A stretch of DNA of 36,299 bases from Mycobacterium sp. (lineage in GTDB: Bacteria; Actinomycetota; Actinomycetes; Mycobacteriales; Mycobacteriaceae), in the NCBI GenBank assembly GCA_020438865.1, contig JAGQTU010000039.1:1-36299 (forward strand), in the 5' to 3' direction. Shown piece by piece: positions 120-27,010 of this stretch (the first letter of the stretch is position 1; each line of letters opens with the position of its first letter). Under the pieces are notes generated by a model. It saw nothing but the letters and a program-made list of their open reading frames with translations. It was not told the DNA's origin and searched no databases. The position numbers were made by a program, and so were the translations under genes.

Positions 120-785
120 GTGGACTTCGATTTCGACCTCATCGACACCGAGGACTACGAGCGCATTCGCGAACTGCACGAGCCGCTGGCGCACGCCGTG
201 CGCCGGCTCATCGACGCGAGCATCCACACCGGCGCCGACGCCGACGCCGAGGACATTCGGCGCGCCCGCGAGGCCATCGACGATGTCAGCCGAATGCTGG
301 AGGCGACCCGCAGCGGGCGGCCCAGGACGTTGCGGCGCGCCGAGACCGGCACACCGGTCGCCTGGGCGAATCCCGCTGTGGGACGCCACAATCCGATCGC
401 GCCGGTGATCACCACCCATCACGTCGGTGACCGGCTGGCGAGCGAGTTCACCCTCGGGCCGGTCTACGAGGGACCGCCGGGGCTGGTACACGGCGGAATC
501 TGCGCTCTGCTGCTCGACCAGTTGCTCGGCGAGGTGGCCACCAACCAGATGTCGATGCCCAAGTTCACCGGGACGATCTCGCTGAGGTACCTGCGCGGAA
601 CGCCGCTGGGGCCGCTGCGGGCCGAGGCCTGGGTGGAGCGCACCGAAGGCCACAAGACCTATGCGCGCGGTTTCCTCGCCGACGCGCACGGACCGACCGT
701 GGAGGCAGAAGGGGTGTTCATCATGCCGGCTTGGGCGCGCGATGGCGGGGGAGAGCGCAGCGACTCGGGGGTGGCGGCGGGATGA
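120..785 (+). CDS. PaaI-family (hotdog fold) acyl-CoA thioesterase
   Basis: This 221-residue protein has an N-terminal helical extension (about 1-75) followed by a single hotdog domain (about 95-210). The hotdog helix carries GLVHGGICALLLDQ, with HGG at 124-126 and Asp133 as the likely catalytic acid. These are the usual features of PaaI/YbgC-like thioesterases, which hydrolyse acyl-CoA in the cytoplasm. The substrate cannot be read from the sequence. The GTG start at 120 directly follows the previous TGA, and GGAGG at 111-115 serves as ribosome binding site. The TGA at 783-785 overlaps the next ATG (ATGA), so translation is probably coupled to the oxidoreductase. Confidence 0.85.
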   Translation: MDFDFDLIDTEDYERIRELHEPLAHAVRRLIDASIHTGADADAEDIRRAREAIDDVSRMLEATRSGRPRTLRRAETGTPVAWANPAVGRHNPIAPVITTHHVGDRLASEFTLGPVYEGPPGLVHGGICALLLDQLLGEVATNQMSMPKFTGTISLRYLRGTPLGPLRAEAWVERTEGHKTYARGFLADAHGPTVEAEGVFIMPAWARDGGGERSDSGVAAG

Positions 786-1642
786 AGTTCTACGTCAGCT
801 GTGCATTCTCCAAGACCAGCGAGGTCGTCGAGATCGCCAAGGCGGCCGACGATCTCGGCTACGAGGGTCTCGGCATCCCCGATCACGTGGTGAATCTGGA
901 GACCCTGGCAACCCCATACCCGTACACCCCCGACGGCGAGCGCCGCTGGCAGCCGTTCACCGACTGGCCCGACCCGTGGGTGCTGGTCGGCGCTCTGGCC
1001 CAGGCCACCCGGCGGCTGAAGTTCCTCACCACCGTCTACATCCCGGCGATGCGGGATCCCTACTCGGCGGCCAAGGCCATCGGCACCGCCGCCTATCTGG
1101 CGGATGGCCGGGTGCAACTGGGCATCGGGGTGGGCTGGTGCGAGGAAGAGTTCACCCTGATGGGCCAGCAGTTCGCCAAGCGCGGCAAGCGAACCGACGA
1201 GATGATCGAACTGATGCGCAGGCTGTGGGAGCCCGGCTGGACCGAGTTCGACGGCGAGTTCTATAAGACCCCGCGGTTGGAGATGACGCCGACACCGCCG
1301 CCGATCCCGGTCTACAGCGGGGGTCTGTCCGATATCGCGCTGCGCCGCGCCGCCCGCCTCGACGGATGGATCGGCGATCTGATCACCCTGGACCAGGCCA
1401 TCGAACGGGTCGAGAAGGTGCGCGGACTGCGGGCCGAAAAGGGTTTGGGCATGGACGGTTACACGGTCGTCACGCCGCTGGCCGATGCCTTCCTGCCGGA
1501 GCACTACGACCGGGCCGCGCAGGCGGGCATCGACGGCATCATCACCATGCCCTGGGTGTTCTACTGCGGTCCGGACGCCCCGGTGTCGGAGAAGATCGAC
1601 GGCATGCGGCGCTTCCGCAAGGACCTGGGACTGGACGCCTAG
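782..1642 (+). CDS. LLM-class F420-dependent oxidoreductase (TIGR03619-like)
   Basis: A 286-residue TIM-barrel flavin/F420 oxidoreductase of the luciferase-like monooxygenase class. It begins MKFYVSCAFSKTSEVVEIAK and contains the family signatures DDLGYEGLGIPDHV near residues 25-40 and GRVQLGIGVGWCEEEF near residues 110-125. Mycobacterial members mostly use coenzyme F420; the substrate is unknown. The frame is open from 731, but ATG 782 overlaps the upstream stop by four bases and gives the standard N-terminal beta strand, so I chose it. The adjacent thioesterase suggests a joint role in acyl-CoA or lipid-related redox chemistry, which is inference only. The gene converges with a decayed minus-strand gene. 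Confidence 0.85.
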   Translation: MKFYVSCAFSKTSEVVEIAKAADDLGYEGLGIPDHVVNLETLATPYPYTPDGERRWQPFTDWPDPWVLVGALAQATRRLKFLTTVYIPAMRDPYSAAKAIGTAAYLADGRVQLGIGVGWCEEEFTLMGQQFAKRGKRTDEMIELMRRLWEPGWTEFDGEFYKTPRLEMTPTPPPIPVYSGGLSDIALRRAARLDGWIGDLITLDQAIERVEKVRGLRAEKGLGMDGYTVVTPLADAFLPEHYDRAAQAGIDGIITMPWVFYCGPDAPVSEKIDGMRRFRKDLGLDA

Positions 1643-1668: not shown

Positions 1669-2202
1669 TCAGGTGGGGTCGGCGGATGTCCTATCCGCGG
1701 CCTGGCTGCAGCGGTGTGCGCAACGGCTACAGCCGTGAATCACCCTGCGTGTCAACGGCGTCGGAAATCCGCAGTCGGCGCACGGCAGACCCGGTTGGGT
1801 GTCGACGCAGCCGAATCCCGGCGCGTCGCAGGTCCGGGCCGCACGTCGCCAGGCAGCGAGCCAGTGTCGCGCCGAGTCGGCTCAGCACCTCTCGACGGCC
1901 GGGATTGTGAGTGGCCCGCAGGTCCGGCTCGACGAGAGCCAGGCAGTCGGGCGAGCGTCGCACCGTTGCGCGGACAGCGGCGCTGAGGCTCTGCAGTGTG
2001 GTGATGCCCTTGACGACACCGACCGGTTCACCGCGCGCCGGCCGCACGATGAGCGCCTGGGCAGGCAGTGGGGTGAGCAGCTCGGCGCCGAGTGACGGTC
2101 GAAGGCGGGCGCGACTTGCCGTGCCTTGCCGTGCCGGGTGCCGACCGCGATGACAGCACCGCGGTACGGCTCACGATGCGCCGCCGACGCCCTTCGCGTC
2201 AT
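1669..2202 (-). pseudogene. Decayed DUF6671-like gene (two frameshifts and an internal deletion)
   Basis: Conserved blocks appear in order on the minus strand but in three frames. Block 1 (about 2160-2083) reads GAVIAVGTRHGKARQVAPAF. After a frame change near the codons for DRH, block 2 (about 2092-1850) reads LGAELLTPLPAQALIVRPA, then VVKGITTLQSL and EPDLRATHNPGRREVLSRL. After a second frame change near 1840, block 3 reads CDAPGFGCVDTQPGLPCADC, then GFPTPLTRR and HGCSRCAHRC, ending at a TGA at 1669. The Cys pairs look like a zinc ribbon. From memory, intact DUF6671 proteins are roughly 280 residues; only about 175 codons remain and the middle is missing. The function of the family is unknown. 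This explains the otherwise gene-free 1643-2170 stretch. Confidence 0.65.
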
Positions 2203-2467
2203 GAAGCACTGCCAAGATCTCGCCGATGTCGTGCCCCCGCTCGACCGGGTGCCGCAACGGGCGGTCCGCCTTGACCCGGTAGTAGTTGCGTCGGCCCTCG
2301 CGGAGCCGGTCGAGGTAACCTCCCTCGACGAGGTCGCTGACGATGCGCTGGGCCGCGCGTTCGGTCACGCCCACCCGCTCGGCCACGTCGCGCAACCGGA
2401 TCCCGGGATCCCGCGCAATGCACAACAGGGTGTGGGCGTGATTGGTCAGAAAGGTCCATTCCCCCAT
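2171..2467 (-). CDS. Small winged-helix transcriptional regulator divergent from the dab operon
   Basis: A 98-residue one-domain protein beginning MGEWTFLTNHAHTLLCIARD. A helix-turn-helix follows (RLRDVAERVGVTERAAQRIV, about residues 24-43), then a wing containing REGRRNYYRV (about residues 56-65). This matches a common actinobacterial MarR/ArsR-like wHTH family. I placed the start at ATG 2467 rather than GTG 2488. ATG 2467 begins the conserved MGEWTFLTNHAH sequence and lies 6 bases after a TACACT -10 hexamer, as in leaderless mycobacterial genes. It is transcribed away from dabB across a 133-bp shared regulatory region, so it is the natural candidate regulator of that operon. It has no obvious ligand domain beyond the C-terminal helix. 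Confidence 0.8.
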   Translation of the reverse strand: MGEWTFLTNHAHTLLCIARDPGIRLRDVAERVGVTERAAQRIVSDLVEGGYLDRLREGRRNYYRVKADRPLRHPVERGHDIGEILAVLHDAKGVGGAS

Positions 2468-2473
2468 ACCTGA

Positions 2474-2479
2474 AGTGTA
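2474..2479 (-). promoter_or_regulatory. -10 hexamer TACACT for the wHTH regulator
   Basis: Read on the minus strand, TACACT is followed by 6 bases (TCAGGT) and then ATG 2467. This is the spacing of a leaderless mycobacterial transcript. No convincing -35 is seen. Confidence 0.45.
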
Positions 2480-2563
2480 GGTCTGCACTGCCGTAACAAG
2501 AAATACGCATCCATCGTCGGCTCCTTCGTGTCGCGCTCATATGGGACTCATAATTCCCGAAGA

Positions 2564-2593
2564 TTGACACCCGAAATAAAACACATGTAGTTT
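2564..2593 (+). promoter_or_regulatory. Promoter of the dab operon (TTGACA, 18 bp, TAGTTT)
   Basis: A perfect TTGACA (2564-2569) is separated by 18 bp from TAGTTT (2588-2593), which fits the mycobacterial TAnnnT -10. The expected start site is at about 2600-2601, the A of the dabB ATG, so the transcript would be leaderless. An inverted repeat ACACA (2581-2585) / TGTGT (2593-2597) flanks the -10 and could be an operator for the divergent regulator. Confidence 0.55.
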
Positions 2594-2600
2594 GTGTCGC

Positions 2601-4187
2601 ATGTTGGACGGTATCTCGATGACGACGACCGGTGGTCCGGTCATGAGCGCATTGTTGGTGATCCTGCTGGCGGCACCGGCCGTCATGGCCGCGTTGGCCA
2701 TGACCGCCGGGCGCCGCAGCCCGCGACTCGCCGGCGGCCTCGGAGCGCTGACCGCGGGTGCGGGCTTTCTGGGTTCGGTGGTTCTGGCGGTCAAGGCGGC
2801 TGCCGGTGATGTCGCTTCGCTGTCGATCAACTCCGCCGGCGGCCCGGTCCTCGCGGTTCGCGCCGACCAGGTCGCGGTGGTTCTGCTGCTGCTGGTGTTC
2901 GGCGTCAGCGCGATCGTGCAGACCTTCGCGATGCGCTACCTCGCCGAGGACGGGCGCGCCGTTTGGTTCGCGGCCGGAGCGGGCCTGCTCACCACCGCCT
3001 CCGCGGTCCTGATGACAGCCGGCACCCTGGTGATGCTCGCCATCAGCTGGACGGTTGCCGGAGTGGCGCTGTGCCTGCTGCTCGCGACCTACTGGCAGCT
3101 GTCCGCCGCCCGGGACGGAGTGCGGCGAACGGCGACGGCCTTCCTGCTCGGAGACCTCGCGCTGTGGGCGGCGGTGGCACTGGTCGCCACCCGGGCGGGC
3201 AGCTTCGACCTGCGCGCGCTGCAGTCGGAGTCACTGCGTGGTCCGGTGATCGCTGTGGCTGCCATCCTGGTGGTGGTGGCCGCACTGTCCCGGTCGGCGC
3301 AGATACCGTTCCACCGCTGGCTGCCGGCCACGCTGGCCGCGCCCACCCCGGTCTCGGCACTGCTGCACGCCGGGGTGGTCAACGCCGGCGGCGTCCTGCT
3401 GGTCAAGCTGAGCTTCCTGCTCACCGCCTCCGGGCTGGCTCAGGCGGCGACCATCGTCGCAGGCGTCGCCACGCTGGCCTACGGCGCCATGATCATGCTG
3501 GCCAAGCCTGATATCAAGGGTGCCCTGGTGCACTCCACGATGGCCCAGATGGGCTTCATGATCCTCACCTGCGGGCTGGGTCTCTGGGCCGCGGCGGTGT
3601 TCCATCTCGTCGCGCACGGCTTCTACAAGGCCACCCTGTTCCTGTCCTCGGGGTCGGCGATCGCCTACCGTCGCCGGAAGACGGCGCTGCCGATCCTCGA
3701 GCTCTCGGCGGGCGAGCGGATCCGGGCGATGGTCCCCGCCGTGCTGCTGCCCGCGGCCGCCCTGTACCTGGCGCTGAGCATCATCCCGATGGGTCCCGGC
3801 GACCACACCGCGGAATGGGCACTGCTGCTCTTCGCCTGGGTCACCGGCGCCGCCGCGAGCATGGGCTGGCTGGCCCGCCGGCCGGGCCTCGGAGGAATTC
3901 TGACCGCCGCCGCCTTCCTGGTGCCCGCCAGCCTCGGTTACGTCTGGCTGATCTCCACGGTCAGCGGCTTCATGGCACCGGCCCTACCGGTCGCCGCGCT
4001 GCCGGCCACGGCCACCTGGATGATCACCGGCGCCACGCTGCTGGCCCTCGGCGCCCTGGCCGCGGTGCGCTGGGCGCCCGGCGGCGGGAGGTTGCAGAAC
4101 GCTCTCTACGCCCGCGCCCTGAGTGCCGGTCACATCGCGCCCTCAACGCCGTCCCTGCCCACCCAACTGACAGGAGCACATTCATGA
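2601..4187 (+). CDS. dabB: DabB: NuoL-like proton-conducting subunit of the DAB inorganic-carbon transporter
   Basis: A 528-residue polytopic membrane protein of the proton-translocating NADH-quinone oxidoreductase/MrpA family, with about 13-15 hydrophobic segments. The proton_antipo_M core is visible as QIPFHRWLPATLAAPTPVSA and then LLHAGVVNAGGVLLVKLSFL near residues 235-275, with HGFYKATLFLSSGSAIAYRR near residues 340-360. Complex I partners are absent. Instead it overlaps dabA by ATGA, the arrangement of DAB (DIC accumulation) systems, where DabB is thought to couple the proton gradient to CO2 hydration by DabA. I chose ATG 2601 because it coincides with the predicted transcription start. 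TTG 2592 and ATG 2619 and 2643 are in-frame alternatives. Located in the cytoplasmic membrane. Confidence 0.88.
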   Translation: MLDGISMTTTGGPVMSALLVILLAAPAVMAALAMTAGRRSPRLAGGLGALTAGAGFLGSVVLAVKAAAGDVASLSINSAGGPVLAVRADQVAVVLLLLVFGVSAIVQTFAMRYLAEDGRAVWFAAGAGLLTTASAVLMTAGTLVMLAISWTVAGVALCLLLATYWQLSAARDGVRRTATAFLLGDLALWAAVALVATRAGSFDLRALQSESLRGPVIAVAAILVVVAALSRSAQIPFHRWLPATLAAPTPVSALLHAGVVNAGGVLLVKLSFLLTASGLAQAATIVAGVATLAYGAMIMLAKPDIKGALVHSTMAQMGFMILTCGLGLWAAAVFHLVAHGFYKATLFLSSGSAIAYRRRKTALPILELSAGERIRAMVPAVLLPAAALYLALSIIPMGPGDHTAEWALLLFAWVTGAAASMGWLARRPGLGGILTAAAFLVPASLGYVWLISTVSGFMAPALPVAALPATATWMITGATLLALGALAAVRWAPGGGRLQNALYARALSAGHIAPSTPSLPTQLTGAHS

Positions 4188-6751
4188 CCGCCGTCCAGAT
4201 CAAGACCGGGCTCGCTGAACAGCGGTCCGCGTTGCGCAGCGATATCACGCTGGCGGCGCGGGTCCTGCCCACGCACTACCCCCTCGAGACCTTCATCGCC
4301 GTCAATCCGCTCGCCGGATTCGAGGCGCTGCCCTTCGAGCAGGCGGTGCGCCGGGCCGGCGATCTCTACGGCATCCGGGGAACGCTGTCCGAGGATCGCT
4401 TCCGCGAACTGCACCGGTCGGGCCGCATCACCGATGCCGACCTCGATACGGCGCTGGCCCGCTGGTATCCCGGCGTGATCGCCGGTGCGCCACTGCGGTT
4501 CGGCGGCCGCGAGGTCACCGCGGCCGAGCTGCTCCGGGGCGACCTGCTCCACGGCACGGGAACCCCGCACCCGGCGCGCCGCCACCGCAGTCACTCCGAG
4601 CGGGTGGCCCCGGAGGTGGCGCAGACCATCGACGCGCAAGCGGCCAAGTGGTGTGCGGCGTTCTTCGGCGGGGCCAGCTGGTCGATGCCCGGCCGCAAAG
4701 CCGGCTTCTACGCGGCTTGGCGCGCGCTGGCGCCCGCCGACCCGACCCTGCCGCGCAAGGTCAGGGCGCAGCTTCGCGAGGTCGCCGAGCGGCCCGATGA
4801 CGCGATCCTGGCGGCGCTCGCCCGGCTGGGGGTCGAGGAGCAGTCGCGCATCGCCTACCTCCAGGCCCATCTGAGCCGGCTGCCGGGGTGGGCGGCACAC
4901 ATCCAGTGGTGCGCGGCCCGCGACGCCGGCGTGGACCTGCCCGGCTATCTGGCGGTGCGGTTGAGCTACGAGGCAGCCTTGCTGCCCCAGGACCGGACGT
5001 ATTCGGACCCAGAGCCGCCGGCGACGGAGATCCCCTCGGCGCGAGCCCGCGCCGCTCACCTGGCCAGGGTATGGAAGCTCGAGGTGGCTGAGACCGAACT
5101 GGCCGCGGCGGCGCGGGTGCTGGCCGCGCTGCCGGTCGCAGCCCGAGAGATGCTGTGGCAGAACGCCTTCGAGGGTCATTACCGGGACGGGCTGCTCGCC
5201 GAGCTGGCCGCCCCGCCGCAGCACGTCGCGCCTTCGATGCCCGACACCCAGCTGATCAGTTGCATCGACACCCGTTCGGAGGGTCTGCGCCGGCATCTGG
5301 AGTCCATCGACGGCTACCAGACCTTCGGCTTCGCCGGCTTCTTCGCCGTCGCCATCCGATTCACCGACCTGCTGGGCGGCAAGTCGTGCGACCTCTGCCC
5401 GGTGCTGATCGAGCCGAATCACGACATCCGCGAGACGCCGGCACCCGAAGCCGCGGTGGCAGCTGCCCGGGAGGTCGCCGGGGTGGTGGGACTCACCGGA
5501 GCGGAGTCGGCGTTCCACGCCGCGAAGGACGCCGTGGCCGCACCGTTCACGCTGGCCGAGGCGGCCGGCTGGCTGGCCGCACCGCTCTCGGCGGCCAAGA
5601 CTCTGGCACCCGCGTTGAGCGGCAAGCTGCGGCACCGCTTGCGCGACCTGGTCGCTCCGCCCGCGCCGACGGTGCTCAACGTCGCGGAGCTTCCGCTGGA
5701 CCAGCGGGCCCTGTTCGCCCAGGTGGCCCTCACGACCATGGGGCTGACCGAGAACTTCGGCCGGCTGGTCGTGCTCACCGGGCACGGCAGCACCACGGAG
5801 AACAACCCCTACCAGGCGTCTCTGGACTGCGGGGCCTGCGGCGGGCAGGCGGGCGGCCCCAACGCCCGCGCCGCCGCGGCGATCCTCAACCAACCGGAGG
5901 TGCGCGACGAACTGCGCTCGCTGGGCATCGACGTCCCCGAGTACACCTTCTTCCTCGCCGCGCAGCACGACACCGCCACCGACCGGGTCTCGGTGCTGGA
6001 CACCCATCTCATCCCGGACACGCACCGCGATCAGGTCCGGCAACTGGAGCAGGATCTGGCCCGAGCCGGCGCTGCGCTGGCGGCCGAACGCAGTGTCATG
6101 CTGCCGGGCGCCCCGGGGCAGATTTCGCCGAGCCGTGCGGCACGGCACGTCGCGGGCCGGTCATTGGACTGGGCCCAGGTCTATCCGGAGTGGGGACTCG
6201 TCGGCAACGCGGCCTTCGTGGTCGCGCCGCGTGAGGTGACGCGTGGGATCAACCTTCACCGCCGGACATTCCTGCACTCCTACGAAGCCGATGTCGACCC
6301 CGATGGCAGTGCGTTGGAGACGATCCTCACCGCGCCACTGGTGGTGGCGCAGTGGATCAACTGCCAGTACTACTTCTCGACCGTCGCGCCCGAGGTCTTC
6401 GGCGCCGGCACCAAGACGATCCACAATGTCGTGGGCACCGCCGGGGTCATCGCCGGACACGAAGGGGACCTGCGACTGGGTCTGCCCTGGCAGTCGGTGG
6501 CCACCGGTCGGCAGCTGGCCCATGAACCCCTGCGTCTGCTCGCCGTCGTCCAGGCCCCGCTGGAGCGGATCGACATGGTGGTCGACCGCAACCCGATCCT
6601 GCAACGACTGTTCGGCAACGGCTGGGTGAGTGTGGCAGCCCGGGAAGAAGCCGGCCAGGAATGGCAGCGATGGACGCCGGGCGGATGGCGCCCCTGGACC
6701 GAAACCGACTGCAACCCAGAAGTTCCCGACAAGGAGGAAATGGTTCGATGA
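4184..6751 (+). CDS. dabA: DabA (DUF2309/UPF0753): carbonic-anhydrase-like subunit of the DAB transporter
   Basis: An 855-residue protein, the usual size for DabA. Start is ATG 4184, overlapping the dabB stop by four bases. The beta-carbonic-anhydrase-type zinc site is complete: Cys360 and Asp362 in SCIDTRSEG, His534 in LTGHGSTTENN, Cys549 in LDCGACGGQAGG. Arg364 completes the Asp-Arg dyad. Spacing (His to Cys 15 residues, Cys to His 174) matches the ligands established in Halothiobacillus DabA (C351, D353, H524, C539). With DabB it is expected to convert cytosolic CO2 to bicarbonate in one direction, driven by the cation gradient, so concentrating inorganic carbon for carboxylases. A strong ribosome site AAGGAGG near its 3' end serves the next gene. 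Confidence 0.92.
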   Translation: MTAVQIKTGLAEQRSALRSDITLAARVLPTHYPLETFIAVNPLAGFEALPFEQAVRRAGDLYGIRGTLSEDRFRELHRSGRITDADLDTALARWYPGVIAGAPLRFGGREVTAAELLRGDLLHGTGTPHPARRHRSHSERVAPEVAQTIDAQAAKWCAAFFGGASWSMPGRKAGFYAAWRALAPADPTLPRKVRAQLREVAERPDDAILAALARLGVEEQSRIAYLQAHLSRLPGWAAHIQWCAARDAGVDLPGYLAVRLSYEAALLPQDRTYSDPEPPATEIPSARARAAHLARVWKLEVAETELAAAARVLAALPVAAREMLWQNAFEGHYRDGLLAELAAPPQHVAPSMPDTQLISCIDTRSEGLRRHLESIDGYQTFGFAGFFAVAIRFTDLLGGKSCDLCPVLIEPNHDIRETPAPEAAVAAAREVAGVVGLTGAESAFHAAKDAVAAPFTLAEAAGWLAAPLSAAKTLAPALSGKLRHRLRDLVAPPAPTVLNVAELPLDQRALFAQVALTTMGLTENFGRLVVLTGHGSTTENNPYQASLDCGACGGQAGGPNARAAAAILNQPEVRDELRSLGIDVPEYTFFLAAQHDTATDRVSVLDTHLIPDTHRDQVRQLEQDLARAGAALAAERSVMLPGAPGQISPSRAARHVAGRSLDWAQVYPEWGLVGNAAFVVAPREVTRGINLHRRTFLHSYEADVDPDGSALETILTAPLVVAQWINCQYYFSTVAPEVFGAGTKTIHNVVGTAGVIAGHEGDLRLGLPWQSVATGRQLAHEPLRLLAVVQAPLERIDMVVDRNPILQRLFGNGWVSVAAREEAGQEWQRWTPGGWRPWTETDCNPEVPDKEEMVR

Positions 6752-7071
6752 CAGCACCGACACTGACCAAGATGATGAAGATCGAGGTCGTGGTCGCCGG
6801 CAGTGATGCGCCGGCGGTCCGCGATCTGATCAAGAGCGTGGGCGCGACGGGCTTCACCAGCCTGTCCGGGGTCTCCGGGCTCGGCCACCATGGCTACCAC
6901 CAGGGCCGCCTGCTGTTCAACCAGCAGGCCACCCTCGAGCTGCTGATCACGGTGGTGCCCGAAGGCAAGGTCGAAGCGCTGCTGGCCGGCCTGCGGCCCC
7001 TGCTCGACGCCTCACCGGGCGTGATGTTCGTCAGCGAAACCTACGTCAGCCGTCCCGACTACTTCGCCTAA
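6748..7071 (+). CDS. PII-like (CPII-type) signalling protein of the dab operon
   Basis: A 107-residue protein with the beta-alpha-beta pattern of PII-superfamily trimers: MKIEVVVAGSDAPAVRDLIK (strand, helix), GVSGLGHHGYHQGRL in the position of the T-loop, LELLITVVPEGKVEALLAGL (second repeat), then MFVSETYVSRPDY. The T-loop lacks the uridylylated/adenylylated YRG motif of GlnB/GlnK. This fits the CPII/SbtB-like branch found beside bicarbonate transporters, whose characterised members bind adenine nucleotides and bicarbonate. The start at 6748 overlaps the dabA stop (ATGA) with AAGGAGG at 6731-6737. Likely role: reporting carbon or energy state to DabAB. Ligands here are inferred. Confidence 0.8.
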   Translation: MTAPTLTKMMKIEVVVAGSDAPAVRDLIKSVGATGFTSLSGVSGLGHHGYHQGRLLFNQQATLELLITVVPEGKVEALLAGLRPLLDASPGVMFVSETYVSRPDYFA

Positions 7072-7092
7072 CAAAGAGAAAGGTAGACCGAC

Positions 7093-7701
7093 ATGTCCGA
7101 TCCGATGAGCGCCTGGCAGCGACTGCGGGCAGGCAACGAACTGTTCTTCGTACCCACCCACGGCCGCCAGCAGACACTGCACCAGGGCGCCCCGGTGGCC
7201 GCGGTGTTCCGCTGCGCGGACACCGACGTCGCCAGCGAGGTGGTGTTCGGCCAGAGCTGGGGATCGCTGATCGACGTCAGCACCTGGGGCCACGTTGTCG
7301 ACACCGGGGTGCTCGGCACGCTGGAGCACGCCGTCGACAGCCTCGACGTGCCGCTGATCGTGGTGCTCGGCCATCACAACTGCGGCGCCATGCGCGCGGC
7401 GATGCGGGCCTGGCAGAACGCCGAACTGCCGGACGGGGCCAGTCGCCTCGCCGTCGAGCAGGCCCTGTCCTCGATCGTGCGACTGGGGTCGGCGGCCGAC
7501 AGTGCCGACGAGGTCAGCTCCGCGCACGTGGTCTCGGTCGGAATGTCGCTGCTGGAGCGCTCACCCGTCATCGCCCAGCGGGTCGATGCCAGCAGATGCG
7601 GGATCGTCTGCGCCACAACAGATCACGACGGCCGAGTGCAGGCATACGCCACCGTCGGAGCGCTGGGCGAGACGGGTGACGCGCTGCTCGAGTGCGTCTG
7701 A
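7093..7701 (+). CDS. Beta-carbonic anhydrase homologue lacking the Asp-Arg dyad
   Basis: A 202-residue beta-class carbonic anhydrase fold. It aligns well by eye with mycobacterial CanB (LKEGNERF-like N-terminus, DTGVLGTLEHAV, VPLIVVLGH). Zinc ligands are Cys41, Asp43 or water, His94 and Cys97 (CADTDVASE and GHHNCGAM). The invariant C-x-D-S-R motif is altered to C-x-D-T-D, so the Arg of the catalytic dyad is Asp45, and the usual RNAGN/RTAGH segment reads DVSTWGH (61-67). It may therefore be inactive, weakly active or regulatory. It is the last gene of the dab operon, 21 bp after the PII-like gene, with ribosome site AGAAAGG just upstream. The protein is cytosolic, with no signal peptide. Confidence 0.85.
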   Translation: MSDPMSAWQRLRAGNELFFVPTHGRQQTLHQGAPVAAVFRCADTDVASEVVFGQSWGSLIDVSTWGHVVDTGVLGTLEHAVDSLDVPLIVVLGHHNCGAMRAAMRAWQNAELPDGASRLAVEQALSSIVRLGSAADSADEVSSAHVVSVGMSLLERSPVIAQRVDASRCGIVCATTDHDGRVQAYATVGALGETGDALLECV

Positions 7702-7707
7702 GCCGGC

Positions 7708-8112
7708 TCAGCGCCGGGCGCGGCCGCCGATGGTGAAAGCGCCCGGGCCGGCGAAGGCGATGAGGAACAGCGAGAAGCAGAACAGCACGGCCAGCTCGCC
7801 GCCGTTCTCGATGGGCCACAACGCCTTCGGTTGGTGCTCGGTGAAGTAGGCGAACGCCATTGCACCCGAGCCGATCAGGGCCGCGATCCGGGTGAACAGC
7901 CCCAGCAGCACCAGGACGCCGACGGCGAGTTCGATGACACCGGCCCACCAGAAGGGCCATTGACCGACGGGTGGCCTGCCGCCCTGGGCGGCGGGCCAGC
8001 CGAACAATTTCGTCGTGCCGTGGAGGGCGAACAGCAGGCCGATGACGATCCGAAACAGGCCGAGCACGGGGGAGTGATAGGTGTCTAGGCGGGCGTCCAG
8101 TCTCTGGGTCAT
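7708..8112 (-). CDS. DoxX-family membrane protein
   Basis: A 134-residue protein with four hydrophobic segments (about 17-35, 53-72, 77-92 and 105-125) and the family signatures LGLFRIVIGLLFALHGTTKL and WAGVIELAVGVLVLLGLFTR. DoxX proteins are small integral membrane proteins. Mycobacterial members have been linked to redox homeostasis with superoxide dismutase, but the role of this copy is unknown. ATG 8112 lies 6 bases after a TATGGT -10, so it is probably leaderless. A 14-bp perfect palindrome sits immediately upstream of the -10, implying a dedicated repressor. It converges with the dab operon and leaves only 6 bp between stops. Confidence 0.85.
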   Translation of the reverse strand: MTQRLDARLDTYHSPVLGLFRIVIGLLFALHGTTKLFGWPAAQGGRPPVGQWPFWWAGVIELAVGVLVLLGLFTRIAALIGSGAMAFAYFTEHQPKALWPIENGGELAVLFCFSLFLIAFAGPGAFTIGGRARR

Positions 8113-8232: not shown

Positions 8233-9669
8233 TTACACGTCGTAGTAGAGCGCGAACTCGTATGGATGCGGCCGGATCTGTACCGGCAGGATCTCATTCT
8301 CCCGCTTGTAGGCGATCCAGGTCTCGATCAGGTCCGGCGTGAACACGCCGCCCTCGGTCAGGTAGTCGTGATCGGCCTCGAGGCGGTCGATCACCGACGC
8401 CAGCGAGGTCGGCGCCTGCGGGATGTTGGCGGCCTCCTCCGGCGGCAGCTCGTAGAGATCCTTGTCGACCGGGGCGGCCGGCTCGATCTTCTTCTTGATC
8501 CCGTCGATGCCGGCCATCAGCATGGCCGCGAACGCCAGGTACGGGTTGCCCGAGCTGTCCGGGCAACGGAACTCGAGGCGCTTGGCCTTCGGGTTGTTGC
8601 CGGTGATCGGGATGCGCACGCAGGCCGACCGGTTGCGCTGGCTGTACACCAGGTTGATCGGGGCCTCGTAGCCCGGCACCAGCCGTTTGTAGGAGTTCAC
8701 CGTGGGGTTGGTGAACGCCAGCAGCGACGGGGCGTGGTGCAGGATGCCGCCGATGTAGTGCCGCGCGGTGTCGGACAGGCCCGCGTAACCCGCCTCGTCG
8801 TGGAACAGCGGCTTGCCGTCCTTCCACAGCGACTGGTGGCAGTGCATGCCGGACCCGTTGTCACCGAACAGCGGCTTGGGCATGAACGTGACGGTCTTGC
8901 CGGCGGCCCACGCGGTGTTCTTGATGATGTACTTGAACAGCACGAGATCGTCGGCGGCGGCCAGCAGCGTGTTGAACTTGTAGTTGATCTCGGCCTGCCC
9001 GGCGGTGCCCACCTCGTGGTGGCCGCGCTCCAGGGTGAAGCCGGCGTTCTGGAGGTTGGTGCACATCTCGTCGCGCAGGTCGACGTAGTGGTCGTACGGC
9101 GCCACCGGGAAGTAGCCGCCCTTCGGGCGCACCTTGTAGCCGCGGTTGGCACTGCCGTCGGCCTCGAACGGCTCGCCGGAGTTCCACCAGCCCGACTCCG
9201 AGTCGACCTCGTAGAAGGTGCCGTTCATCTTCGAGTCGAAGCTGACCGAGTCGAAGATGTAGAACTCCGCCTCGGCACCGAAGTAGGCGGTGTCGGCGAT
9301 GCCGGTGCTGGCCAGGTAGTTCTCCGCCTTGCGGGCCACGTTGCGCGGGTCGCGCGAGTAGGCCTCACGGGTGAACGGGTCGTGCACGAAGAAGTTCAGG
9401 TTCAGGGTCTTGGCCGCCCGGAAGGGGTCGATGCGGGCGGTCTCGGGGTCCGGCAACAGCATCATGTCGGACTCGTGGATCGACTGGAAGCCGCGAACCG
9501 ACGAACCGTCGAACGCGAGGCCGTCCTCGAACACGCTCTCGTCGAACGCCGAGGCCGGAATCGAGAAGTGCTGGACGACGCCGGGCAGATCACAGAACCG
9601 GATGTCGACGTACTCGACCTTCTCGTCCTTGATCAGCTTGATGATGTCGCCAGCGTTCTTTTCTGCCAC
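8233..9669 (-). CDS. glnA1: Glutamine synthetase type I (GlnA1)
   Basis: A 478-residue enzyme, the same length as M. tuberculosis GlnA1 and nearly collinear with it. It makes glutamine from glutamate, ammonia and ATP as a dodecamer in the cytoplasm. Visible motifs are [17 protein letters not shown] near residue 55, [12 protein letters not shown] with the metal-binding Glu, the ATP-site [16 protein letters not shown], and NRSACVRIP. Tyr406 in [12 protein letters not shown] is the site adenylylated by GlnE. The GTG start at 9669 is preceded by GAAGGAG (9677-9683). Upstream lie a TTGACG -35 candidate and a GlnR-like box, consistent with nitrogen control. Confidence 0.97.
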
Positions 9670-24459: not shown

Positions 24460-26529
24460 TCAGTAGGCCCGCACCGCGTTGCGACCCGAACGCTTCGCCT
24501 TGTACAGCGCTTCGTCGGCGTGCGCCAGCCACGAGTCGAGATCGTCGCCGGCGGCGAGTTCGGCGGCGCCGATGCTGGCGGTCACCGGCCCGGCGTCGGC
24601 GAACATCGTGTCGGCGATCAGTCCGCGAATCTTCTCGGCGGTGACCACCGCCTCCTCGATGTCGGAGTCGCGCAGCAGGATCACGAACTCCTCGCCGCCC
24701 CAGCGGGCCACCACATCGGTGCTCGGCAGGCCCTCCCGAAGTCGCCGGCTCACCTCGATCAGCACCCGATCGCCGGCCTGATGACCGAAGCGGTCGTTGA
24801 TCGACTTGAAGTGGTCCAGGTCCAGCATGAGCAGGGTCAGCGGCCGGCCGGTATCCCGGGCGTCGGACAGTTCGGCCTGGAACAGTTCCTCGCCGTGGCG
24901 CCGGTTCCACACCCCGGTGAGCGCGTCGGTCACCGCCAGTCGGAGCAGTTCGGCTTCGAACGCCTTGCGCTCGCTGATATCCCTTGTGACACCGAGGATC
25001 TCGACGACGCGCCCGTCGGCATCGATGTTGGGGACGATCTGTAGCTCACCGATGATGGTGGACCCGTCGCTGCGGCGGTACTCGTGTTCGTCGCGCAGCA
25101 CCGGCGGCTCGGTGCCGTTCTCGATGGCGGCCCAGAGACGCCGGAAGTAGCCCAGCACGGACGCCTCGGACTGGGGCGTCAGGGTGTCGCGCAGAGACGA
25201 GAACATCGCCTGTTCCGGTGGGATGCCGAGGACCCGCTGAATGGAGGGACTGACGTAGGTGATCCGGGTGTCCATGTCCATGGTCCAGACGACGTCCCAT
25301 GCGTTCTCCGCGAGCAGGCGATAGCGCTCTTCGGACCGCCGGAGGTCGGCCTCGGCTTGTTTGCGCGCGCTGATGTCCCGGGTGACGCCGATGATCTCCA
25401 CCAGGCGGCCGTCCTCGTCGAGGTGGGGGATGACCTGGGTCTCACTGACCATGATCGAGCCGTCTGCGCGGTACTGCTCGTGTTCCTCGCGATACACCGG
25501 CGGCTTCTCGCCGTCGCGGATCGCGGCGTGCAGGTCGCGGAAGTAGGTGCGGATGCCGTCCGCCGACGACGGTGTGTAGATCTCCTCGAGCGGCTGGTCC
25601 ATGGCCTGCTCGACGGTGATGCCGCGAACCCGCTCGACGGCGGCATTGACGTAGGTGGCGGTGCCGTCCGGGCCGGCGGTCCAGATGATCTCCCAGGCGT
25701 TTTCGGCCATCAGCCGGGCGCGCTCCTCGGACCTGCGCAACTCCGCCTCGACCCGCTTGCGTTCGCTGATGTCCCGGCTGACCCCGAGCAGCTCGACGAT
25801 GTGCCCGTCGTCGCCGACATGGGGGATCACCTGAAGATCGGCGCTCATGACGGAGCCGTCCTTGCGGTAGAAGTCCACCTCGCCGTGGAACACCGGCAGT
25901 TCGGCGCCCTTCTCCTGCGCCTCGAACAGCTCCTGGAAGTAGCCGAGGGCAATCTGGACCGACTCCGGGGTCAATGCCTCGGCGAGCGACTCGCTCATCG
26001 CCTCCTCGGGAGTCAGACCGCGGACCTGCTCGACGGCCGGGCTGACATAGGTGATGGTGGTGTCCATCGCCATGGTCCAGATGACTTCCCAGGCGTTTTC
26101 GGCCATCAGCCGGTGTCGTTTCTCCGACAGCTGCAGCTCGACCTCCGCCTCGCGCAGTTGGGTGATGTCGCGCGCGGTGCCCTCCAGGATCACCGAGCCG
26201 TCGTCACGCTGCCGCGACCAGGCCCGGATTCGGCTCGCCCGCTCGTGGCCGTCGCGGTGCCGCCAGACCAGTTCCACTGTGGTCTCGCTGCCGGGTGGCA
26301 GCGCGAGCGCCTCGGCCAACCGCGCTGCGGAAGCCGCGTCGATCCGGCCCAGTACCGTCGCCGGGTCGGCGAGTGCCTCGGCCGCCGTCACGCCGATCTG
26401 GCTTTCCAGCGCATCGTTGATGAACTCGAATGCCAGGTCCGGTTGCACCCGGAGGATGAAGAACACCAGCGCGCCGTGGTCGGCCAGGCGGCGGAACCAC
26501 TCGCCGTCGGGCGGTGCACCCTGGCTCAT
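24460..26529 (-). CDS. Four-PAS GGDEF diguanylate cyclase
   Basis: A 689-residue soluble protein: PAS1 (about 10-128), PAS2 (131-258), PAS3 (259-384), PAS4 (385-511) and GGDEF (512-689) with RWGGEEF (GGEEF at 611-615). PAS2-4 are internal duplicates, each with a RLMAENAWEVIW-like start, a KDGS/ADGS segment and a GVxRDISERK-like end. PAS1 is a different type shared with the neighbouring cyclase and with the fragment at 27025. Predicted to make c-di-GMP in response to unknown signals. The RxxD inhibitory site is missing (PSTD). Start is ATG 26529; the upstream extension of the frame overlaps the PNPOx gene and lacks similarity. Confidence 0.92.
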   Translation of the reverse strand: MSQGAPPDGEWFRRLADHGALVFFILRVQPDLAFEFINDALESQIGVTAAEALADPATVLGRIDAASAARLAEALALPPGSETTVELVWRHRDGHERASRIRAWSRQRDDGSVILEGTARDITQLREAEVELQLSEKRHRLMAENAWEVIWTMAMDTTITYVSPAVEQVRGLTPEEAMSESLAEALTPESVQIALGYFQELFEAQEKGAELPVFHGEVDFYRKDGSVMSADLQVIPHVGDDGHIVELLGVSRDISERKRVEAELRRSEERARLMAENAWEIIWTAGPDGTATYVNAAVERVRGITVEQAMDQPLEEIYTPSSADGIRTYFRDLHAAIRDGEKPPVYREEHEQYRADGSIMVSETQVIPHLDEDGRLVEIIGVTRDISARKQAEADLRRSEERYRLLAENAWDVVWTMDMDTRITYVSPSIQRVLGIPPEQAMFSSLRDTLTPQSEASVLGYFRRLWAAIENGTEPPVLRDEHEYRRSDGSTIIGELQIVPNIDADGRVVEILGVTRDISERKAFEAELLRLAVTDALTGVWNRRHGEELFQAELSDARDTGRPLTLLMLDLDHFKSINDRFGHQAGDRVLIEVSRRLREGLPSTDVVARWGGEEFVILLRDSDIEEAVVTAEKIRGLIADTMFADAGPVTASIGAAELAAGDDLDSWLAHADEALYKAKRSGRNAVRAY

Positions 26530-26572
26530 CGCACCCCCGTTCTTTGGCGACGCATTGGCGAAGAGTAGACCC

Positions 26573-27010
26573 TCAGTCGGGTTTGACTTGCTCGAATCGG
26601 CCGGTCTTGTGGTGCAGCTTGATCCGGTACACCGATCCATTGCGCAACGCCGACAGATCGGGCGGCGGTTGGTCCCTGGGCAGCGTGAGCAGTGGCATGA
26701 TCCGTTCGGCAAGCATGGCGAAGCCGGCGTCCCAGTCGCCGCCCCGGCACTCCTCGAAGGTGCCCCAGGCGATGACGCTGCGCCAGTTCGACAGGTCGTC
26801 GACCTGCTCCACCTCGACGCACACTTTCGGGTTGGCCCGCATCGCCCGCAGTTTGGCCCCGTCCATGGCATGGCCGTACACGTAGGTGCCGTCGTAGACG
26901 TAGGTGACGGGCACGACATAGACGCGGCCGTGGCTGATGCAGCCGATACGCGCGATGACCTCGGCGTGCAACACGTCTTCGATCTGTGCCGCATCCAGTT
27001 CACCGAGCAT
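26573..27010 (-). CDS. Pyridoxamine 5'-phosphate oxidase-fold (FMN-binding) protein
   Basis: A 145-residue split-barrel flavin protein. It begins MLGELDAAQIEDVLHAEVIA, then ARIGCISHGRVYVVPVTYVY, YVYGHAMDGAKLRAMRANP, and VCVEVEQVDDLSNWRSVIAW plus GTFEE. This is the pattern of the small Nim/PNPOx-like mycobacterial proteins that bind FMN or heme. Its substrate is unknown. It lies 43 bp upstream of the four-PAS cyclase on the same strand, so it may be co-transcribed and could supply a redox input, by inference only. The ATG start at 27010 overlaps nothing; the upstream PAS fragment ends at 27025. Confidence 0.85.
   Translation of the reverse strand: MLGELDAAQIEDVLHAEVIARIGCISHGRVYVVPVTYVYDGTYVYGHAMDGAKLRAMRANPKVCVEVEQVDDLSNWRSVIAWGTFEECRGGDWDAGFAMLAERIMPLLTLPRDQPPPDLSALRNGSVYRIKLHHKTGRFEQVKPD

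Follow-up and report, generated by a model that had tools for sequence, protein, structure and literature searches.

What does a mycobacterium do with a DabB-DabA inorganic carbon pump, and is the carbonic anhydrase homologue encoded beside this pump an enzyme? Both questions are raised by a locus of the window which we analysed, that is, the entire 36,299-base contig (C303) of a Mycobacterium genome (4.96 Mb in 366 contigs, 90.9% complete). Our answer, which we hold to be rather probable as far as homology and conservation can carry it, is that the locus would encode a heterotroph's pump driven by the proton motive force and turning CO2 into bicarbonate, together with a CPII-like reporter protein and a pseudo-carbonic anhydrase, the whole being transcribed from an apparently leaderless promoter and accompanied by a winged-helix (wHTH) regulator. 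The product of the fourth gene of the operon is probably not an enzyme.

Gene content and position of the locus

The features of the locus and of its flanks are collected in Table 1. The matches of the wHTH regulator, of dabB, of dabA, of the PII-like gene and of the beta-carbonic anhydrase (beta-CA) homologue all exceed the Pfam cut-off (5/5). An ATGA overlap joins dabB to dabA (4184-4187), a second one joins dabA to the PII-like gene (6748-6751), and a gap of 21 bp then precedes the beta-CA homologue. The coordinates and Pfam thus confirm the divergent regulator and the tightly packed dabB-dabA-PII-beta-CA operon that had been described in the initial annotation.

The same annotation had placed this operon between glnE and glnA1. 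The presence of glnA1 bears this out on one side; on the other side, glnE is outside the window, which starts beside a 4HBT gene and an F420-type luciferase-like gene, and in relatives glnE is found nearby, just beyond both. The order in relatives is glnA2, glnE, (4HBT, LLM oxidoreductase), (DUF6671), wHTH, dab operon, (DoxX), glnA1, where the gene called glnA2 is probably such, judging from its position and from its identity of 33-43% to GlnA1. This order means that the placement between glnE and glnA1 fits the lineage. Elsewhere in the window (24460-27003, minus strand), we observed the gene of an 847-aa protein with several PAS domains and one GGDEF domain.

Table 1. Positions in the window of the dab operon, of its regulatory elements and of the flanking genes
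Feature	Position	Strand	Evidence or remark
LLM-class F420-type oxidoreductase, TIGR03619 family, flank	776-1642	+	domain/homology match
Decayed DUF6671 (PF20376) gene	1681-2196	-	broken into three fragments that lie in different frames; the middle is lost
Winged-helix regulator, MarR_2/HTH_24	2171-2488	-	Pfam; divergent from dabB
Core promoter/operator, conserved	2564-2593	+	pattern conservation upstream of dabB
dabB, membrane proton-conducting subunit	ATG 2601 (or TTG 2592)-4187	+	PF00361, 121 bits
dabA, catalytic subunit	4184-6751	+	PF10070, 812 bits
PII-like gene	6748-7071	+	PF00543, 62 bits
Beta-CA homologue (pseudo-beta-carbonic anhydrase)	7093-7701	+	PF00484, 72 bits
DoxX-family gene, flank, outside operon	7708-8112	-	Pfam
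glnA1, flank	8233-9669	-	domain/homology match

The DabA-DabB pump

The PF10070 match of DabA spans positions 2-747 of the 747 positions of the profile, and the protein matches DabA2 of the DAB2 complex of Halothiobacillus neapolitanus (PDB 9rd0, chain 9rd0_A) with an E-value of 8.7e-110. The zinc site (C, H, C) and the Asp-Arg dyad are present, the catalytic set of the window being C-D-R-S-H-C plus H595/D600. In an alignment of 103 DabA rows, which holds the window twice (itself and L200), the equivalents of C351, D353, R355, H524, C539, H585 and D590 are invariant (103/103) while the equivalent of S356 is kept in 101 rows. According to PMC13144422, alanine at the zinc ligands or at the Asp-Arg dyad of DAB2 impairs growth under CO2 limitation.

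The second subunit, DabB, matches DabB2 (9rd0_B) with an E-value of 6.7e-34. Its motifs SALLH, DIKGALVHS and HLVAHGFYK are found at positions 255, 307 and 338, and the spacings within and between them, when compared by motif positions, are equal to those of the proton-path residues S256/H260, K310/S316 and H339/H343/K347 of DabB2. The finger residue is different: in DAB2, Glu444 is essential and occupies the place of Lys399-Asp400 of NuoL, whereas in the sequence alignment it faces Lys448 of the window, with E441 and D449 nearby. Across the DabA alignment, this column holds Lys in 89 of the 103 rows and Glu in 4. Because of this Lys the coupling may differ from that of DAB2, or else the alignment may be shifted there. 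The locus also differs from DAB2 in that a PII-like gene, a pseudo-CA and a wHTH regulator are added to the pump, and in that RuBisCO was not found in the host genome (90.9% complete). From the homology of both subunits and from the residues kept, we infer that DabB-DabA would act as a vectorial carbonic anhydrase which is driven by the proton motive force and converts cytoplasmic CO2 to bicarbonate.

Genes accompanying dabA

The nearest solved relatives of the PII-like protein, 5d4n and its set, are matched with an E-value of 2e-18 over nearly the full length. We take 5d4n to be the bicarbonate-responsive CPII protein of Thiomonas, with the difference that the gene of the window belongs to a dab operon. 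It is from this closest solved relative that we draw a sensing role: the CPII-like protein would report the bicarbonate or the adenylate state to the DabB-DabA pump. In the part of the window that is annotated, we saw no carboxysome genes.

Of 396 Mycobacterium genomes, 80 contain PF10070, a part of these matches being broken or clipped by contig ends. In a family-wide sample it is found in 13 of 301 genomes, 7 of these 13 lying outside the genus. We fetched 70 dabA loci of the genus, of which 66 were usable (1.5 kb or more of sequence on the right-hand side of dabA). A PII gene and a CA-like gene accompany dabA in 65 of the 66. The lone exception is G074 (L199), where dabA is broken and where neither a PII gene nor a CA-like gene was found; another broken copy of dabA was seen in G165 (L198). 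Outside the genus, the CA-like gene is absent from five of six dab loci. The sixth one (L197, in genome G419, of the same family and another genus) has a distant relative of the CA family (47.5 bits) just after dabA, which is devoid of the catalytic Arg and has the motif ASAAH; no PII gene was found at this locus, and its CA-family gene is possibly an independent pseudo-anhydrase. When 80 genomes were searched for the CA-like protein, all the dabA-positive ones (10/10) matched with at least 193 bits. None of the 70 dabA-negative genomes had an intact match, the best score there (138 bits, 45% identity) being in the range of canonical enzymes, and fragments of the gene were found in one of them, G053.

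The carbonic anhydrase homologue

The closest structure to the CA-like protein is 2a5v (E 6.7e-34), which is presumably the mycobacterial CanB-type beta-CA Rv3588c. As in this nearest solved relative, the zinc ligands are present (C41, H94 and C97), and so is the Asp (D43); unlike it, the protein of the window has D45 at the position of the dyad Arg and, by alignment, is without the Gln. It has CADTD in place of CADSR, and STWGH in place of RTAGH.

We aligned 78 unique CA-like proteins from 120 DAB-linked places with the four canonical beta-CAs of the host genome; the distantly similar L197 is left out of the following counts, which are therefore given for 77 proteins. The first zinc Cys is kept in 72 of them, the His in 77 and the second Cys in 71, all three ligands being present together in 71, and the catalytic Asp is kept in 75. 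The dyad Arg survives in only 5 proteins, its position being occupied by 12 residue types, and all five catalytic positions are kept in only 4. The column of the transition-state Gln is gapped in 77/77, in a region which is gapped and poorly aligned as a whole. In the RTAG motif, Arg is changed to Ser in 74 proteins and Ala to Trp in 76, and the pseudo-CA family has a conserved S-T/N-W-G-H motif. Both zinc Cys are replaced by Ser in five members, which form part of the M. gordonae clade. The four other beta-CAs of the host genome all keep C, D, R, H and C. What had been called a beta-CA homologue does belong to the family (PF00484, 2a5v), but with the dyad Arg in 5/77 and all five positions in 4/77 it is probably no enzyme. 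We must also mention a tandem pair of pseudo-CA genes at L127 (G026), located about +391 and +1226 relative to the dabA end; one copy has the Arg, but its second zinc Cys is changed to Ser.

The DAB-linked CA-like proteins group together in a 73-row tree, as a single clade (support 100/100, stem 1.47). This clade meets the mycobacterial CanB-like and the Microbacteriaceae enzymes at one fork, its sister group being unsettled; the two "canonical" rows found inside it are Arg-bearing duplicates of the DAB-linked L055 and L088. The pseudo-CA would thus have a single origin and be related to the mycobacterial CanB-type enzymes. The gene is under purifying selection, with dN/dS values of 0.03-0.24 in 16 hand-picked pairs; three of these pairs, from the gordonae clade where both zinc Cys are changed to Ser, give 0.07-0.17. 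Taken with the losses of residues, this selection points to a gene that is maintained for something other than ordinary carbonic anhydrase activity. The pseudo-CA would most likely be a non-catalytic receptor of CO2/HCO3-, or a partner of the beta-CA-like fold of DabA.

DUF6671

In many relatives, a DUF6671 gene adjoins the dab operon. The window has no intact full-length copy, and the decayed one of Table 1 was missed by the initial annotation; the gene is intact in many relatives, in some of them at this position, and G171 (L191) and G079 (L136) have just fragments of it. We found DUF6671 in 30 of the 396 Mycobacterium genomes, full-length and without stops in 28. All the 30 carriers are among the 80 genomes with dabA (6.1 expected, Fisher p 8.5e-24), and in 29 of them both genes are on one contig. 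In a class-wide sample of 246 genomes, DUF6671 is found in 5 besides the host; four of them also carry dabA, on the contig that bears DUF6671, versus 5 of the 75 others tested (p 4e-4). By co-occurrence, DUF6671 is hence a DAB partner. The fifth genome (G740, L257; 1.4-Mb) is an exception: it has DUF6671 and a wHTH relative, and no dabA was found in it.

When compared as a profile with 24 HAM1 proteins, DUF6671 aligns with HAM1/ITPase in the expected register and weakly (probability 9%, P 0.0036, the controls giving P 0.16 for CA and P 0.47 for PII). Such a relationship is only a lead, and against solved structures the profile gave nothing better than an E-value of 0.26. A role in defence was considered and rejected: PADLOC gave nothing for DUF6671, for the PII-like protein and for DabA, and only weak helix-turn-helix matches for the regulator.

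Promoter and regulator

Upstream of dabB, TTGACA (2564-2569) is followed, after an 18-nt spacer containing ACACATG, by TAGTTT (2588-2593). The latter ends 7 nt before ATG 2601, a distance which implies a leaderless dabB mRNA. The pattern made of TTGAC, 14-22 nt and ACA[CT]GTA, which was written after viewing the same loci, occurs in 52 of 102 unique dabB upstreams versus 1 of 2040 shuffles, and a stricter pattern has a single match in the host genome, at dabB (reversed control, 0). The pattern is missing from the 50 other loci, which comprise most slow-grower loci and all the non-Mycobacterium loci except L059 (Rhodococcus). A promoter, as proposed in the initial annotation, is therefore supported by the conservation of its elements, while a generic scan with the sigma-70 consensus found no promoter upstream of dabB.

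Orthologues of the wHTH regulator precede dabB with 78-90% identity in relatives having the operon at the gln site, and with 53-74% identity in Rhodococcus, Actinoplanes and Microbacteriaceae. The operon would be transcribed from this single promoter, conserved and seemingly leaderless, with the divergent regulator probably binding the operator there.

Origin of the module

We compared the tree of DabA with that of AsnB for 67 genomes, these being quick trees with a single marker. Their distances are correlated (r 0.75 inside the genus; p 0.001 by permutation), and 14 supported splits are common to both trees (of 27 for AsnB and 35 for DabA). The two nearest genomes of the window are identical in both, and 8 supported splits of DabA conflict with AsnB. 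In the dabA-negative genome G053 (L256, on contig C9), the interval from glnA1 to glnE contains two DoxX genes, two fragments of the CA-like gene, the regulator's C-terminal part, LLM, 4HBT and glnE: this is a deletion scar, left by the loss of dab at the glnA1 site.

Among relatives the dab operon is found at several chromosomal sites, and a mobilizable plasmid of Mycolicibacterium aubagnense (23.7 kb, NZ_CP122998.1, L332, 989-9010) carries the whole module, namely wHTH, TerC, CBS, DUF6671, dabB, dabA, PII-like and CA-like genes, the TerC and CBS-domain genes sitting between the regulator and DUF6671. Its PII-like protein is 84% identical to that of the window; its CA-like protein has the STWGH motif and the Arg. 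Several chromosomal sites likewise have TerC next to dab. On a Nocardia plasmid we found DUF6671, wHTH, dabB and dabA, another gene occupying the position of PII.

From the agreement of the trees, the scar of G053 and the plasmid copies, dab appears to be an old module, often lost and sometimes moved. The initial annotation had seen it as acquired or lineage-restricted, and some transfer does occur, as the plasmid copy and the 8 conflicting splits indicate. A recent horizontal acquisition of the operon at the glnE-glnA1 site is nevertheless improbable. The patchiness of dabA (80/396), the several chromosomal sites, the complete copy on a mobilizable plasmid and the tree conflicts speak for it, but the DabA tree largely follows that of AsnB, down to the two nearest neighbours of the window, and what is seen in G053 is a loss at this very site.

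Role of the operon and alternative readings

The bicarbonate made by DabB-DabA would feed the carboxylases of the heterotroph. Since the genome has four other beta-CAs, the operon would not be the sole route of carbon supply, and its likeliest use would be an energised, one-way supply of bicarbonate to carboxylases at low CO2. A supply of bicarbonate to the carboxylases of a heterotroph at low CO2 had been suggested in the initial annotation, and it is supported as far as the sequence goes. It is very unlikely that the module serves an autotrophic or mixotrophic fixation of CO2, as in chemoautotrophs: DAB2 was characterised in a chemolithoautotroph, and RuBisCO is also found in 12 of the 80 genomes with dabA, but this overlap is that of chance (10.9 expected, p 0.72), and the host genome, 90.9% complete, yielded no RuBisCO. 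We give even less credit to the view that DabAB would mainly carry ions or support the membrane potential rather than supply inorganic carbon. DabB resembles the NuoL and Mrp subunits, the alignment shows no conserved finger Glu and a use of sodium was argued for MpsAB; against this, the zinc site and the dyad of DabA are invariant in all the 103 rows, and a CPII-type PII protein and a CA relative are constantly alongside.

As to the fourth gene, its product could still be an enzyme beside the pump, whether a carbonic anhydrase that works slowly or a hydrolase acting on a related substrate such as COS or CS2, the beta-CA family being known to include COS/CS2 hydrolases. With three zinc ligands in 71/77 proteins, the Asp in 75/77 and all five positions in 4/77, a weak or changed catalysis is possible. 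We judge this unlikely, as the position of the Arg tolerates 12 residue types, as the region of the Gln is lost by alignment, and as five members are without both zinc Cys in a clade which is still under purifying selection. Our preferred reading remains that of a non-catalytic protein, with the pump being presumably gated by the PII protein and by the pseudo-anhydrase. A more detailed version can be offered as a tentative proposal, which we would sooner doubt than believe: the dead anhydrase would use its remodelled pocket to sense CO2 or bicarbonate and, together with PII, would gate DabA by pairing with the beta-CA-like domains of DabA, DUF6671 being a further dedicated partner of DAB.

Relation to known systems and significance

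Earlier publications already describe the pump, its use by a heterotroph and the nuoL-like/DUF2309/PII gene order (PMC5700660, PMC4633670). The heterotroph Staphylococcus aureus has a DabAB homologue, MpsAB, which PMC6689103 describes as crucial for growth in air and PMC8567241 as the sole system of this species, whereas the genome of the window has four other beta-CAs. The dabB-dabA-PII order is that of nuoL-DUF2309-PII clusters (COGNAT clade B, PMC5700660; alpha-carboxysome loci, PMC4633670), a reverse-oriented regulator being found in another clade; the difference is that the divergent regulator there is of the LysR type, and that the accessible parts of these two papers describe neither a CA-like gene nor DUF6671. 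In the full-text literature searched, which had most subscription papers outside its scope, none of the papers listed deals, judging from titles and abstract openings, with the pseudo-anhydrase or with the link to DUF6671, and the word DUF6671 itself is absent from this literature.

PMC13144422 reports that purified DAB2 binds CO2 but does not hydrate it by itself. For the switching of DAB pumps, the gene next to dabA, conserved and coding for a relative of the catalytic fold that is probably inactive, offers a direct and testable candidate regulator. DUF6671 gains a functional link. The annotation "carbonic anhydrase" is probably wrong for the DAB-linked gene, for instance in the record of the M. 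aubagnense plasmid. This is of consequence, since work on mycobacterial beta-CAs treats them as enzymes. Finally, if the pseudo-CA and PII do gate the pump, with DUF6671 as a further DAB partner, the DABs of actinobacteria would be regulated machines made of multiple components.
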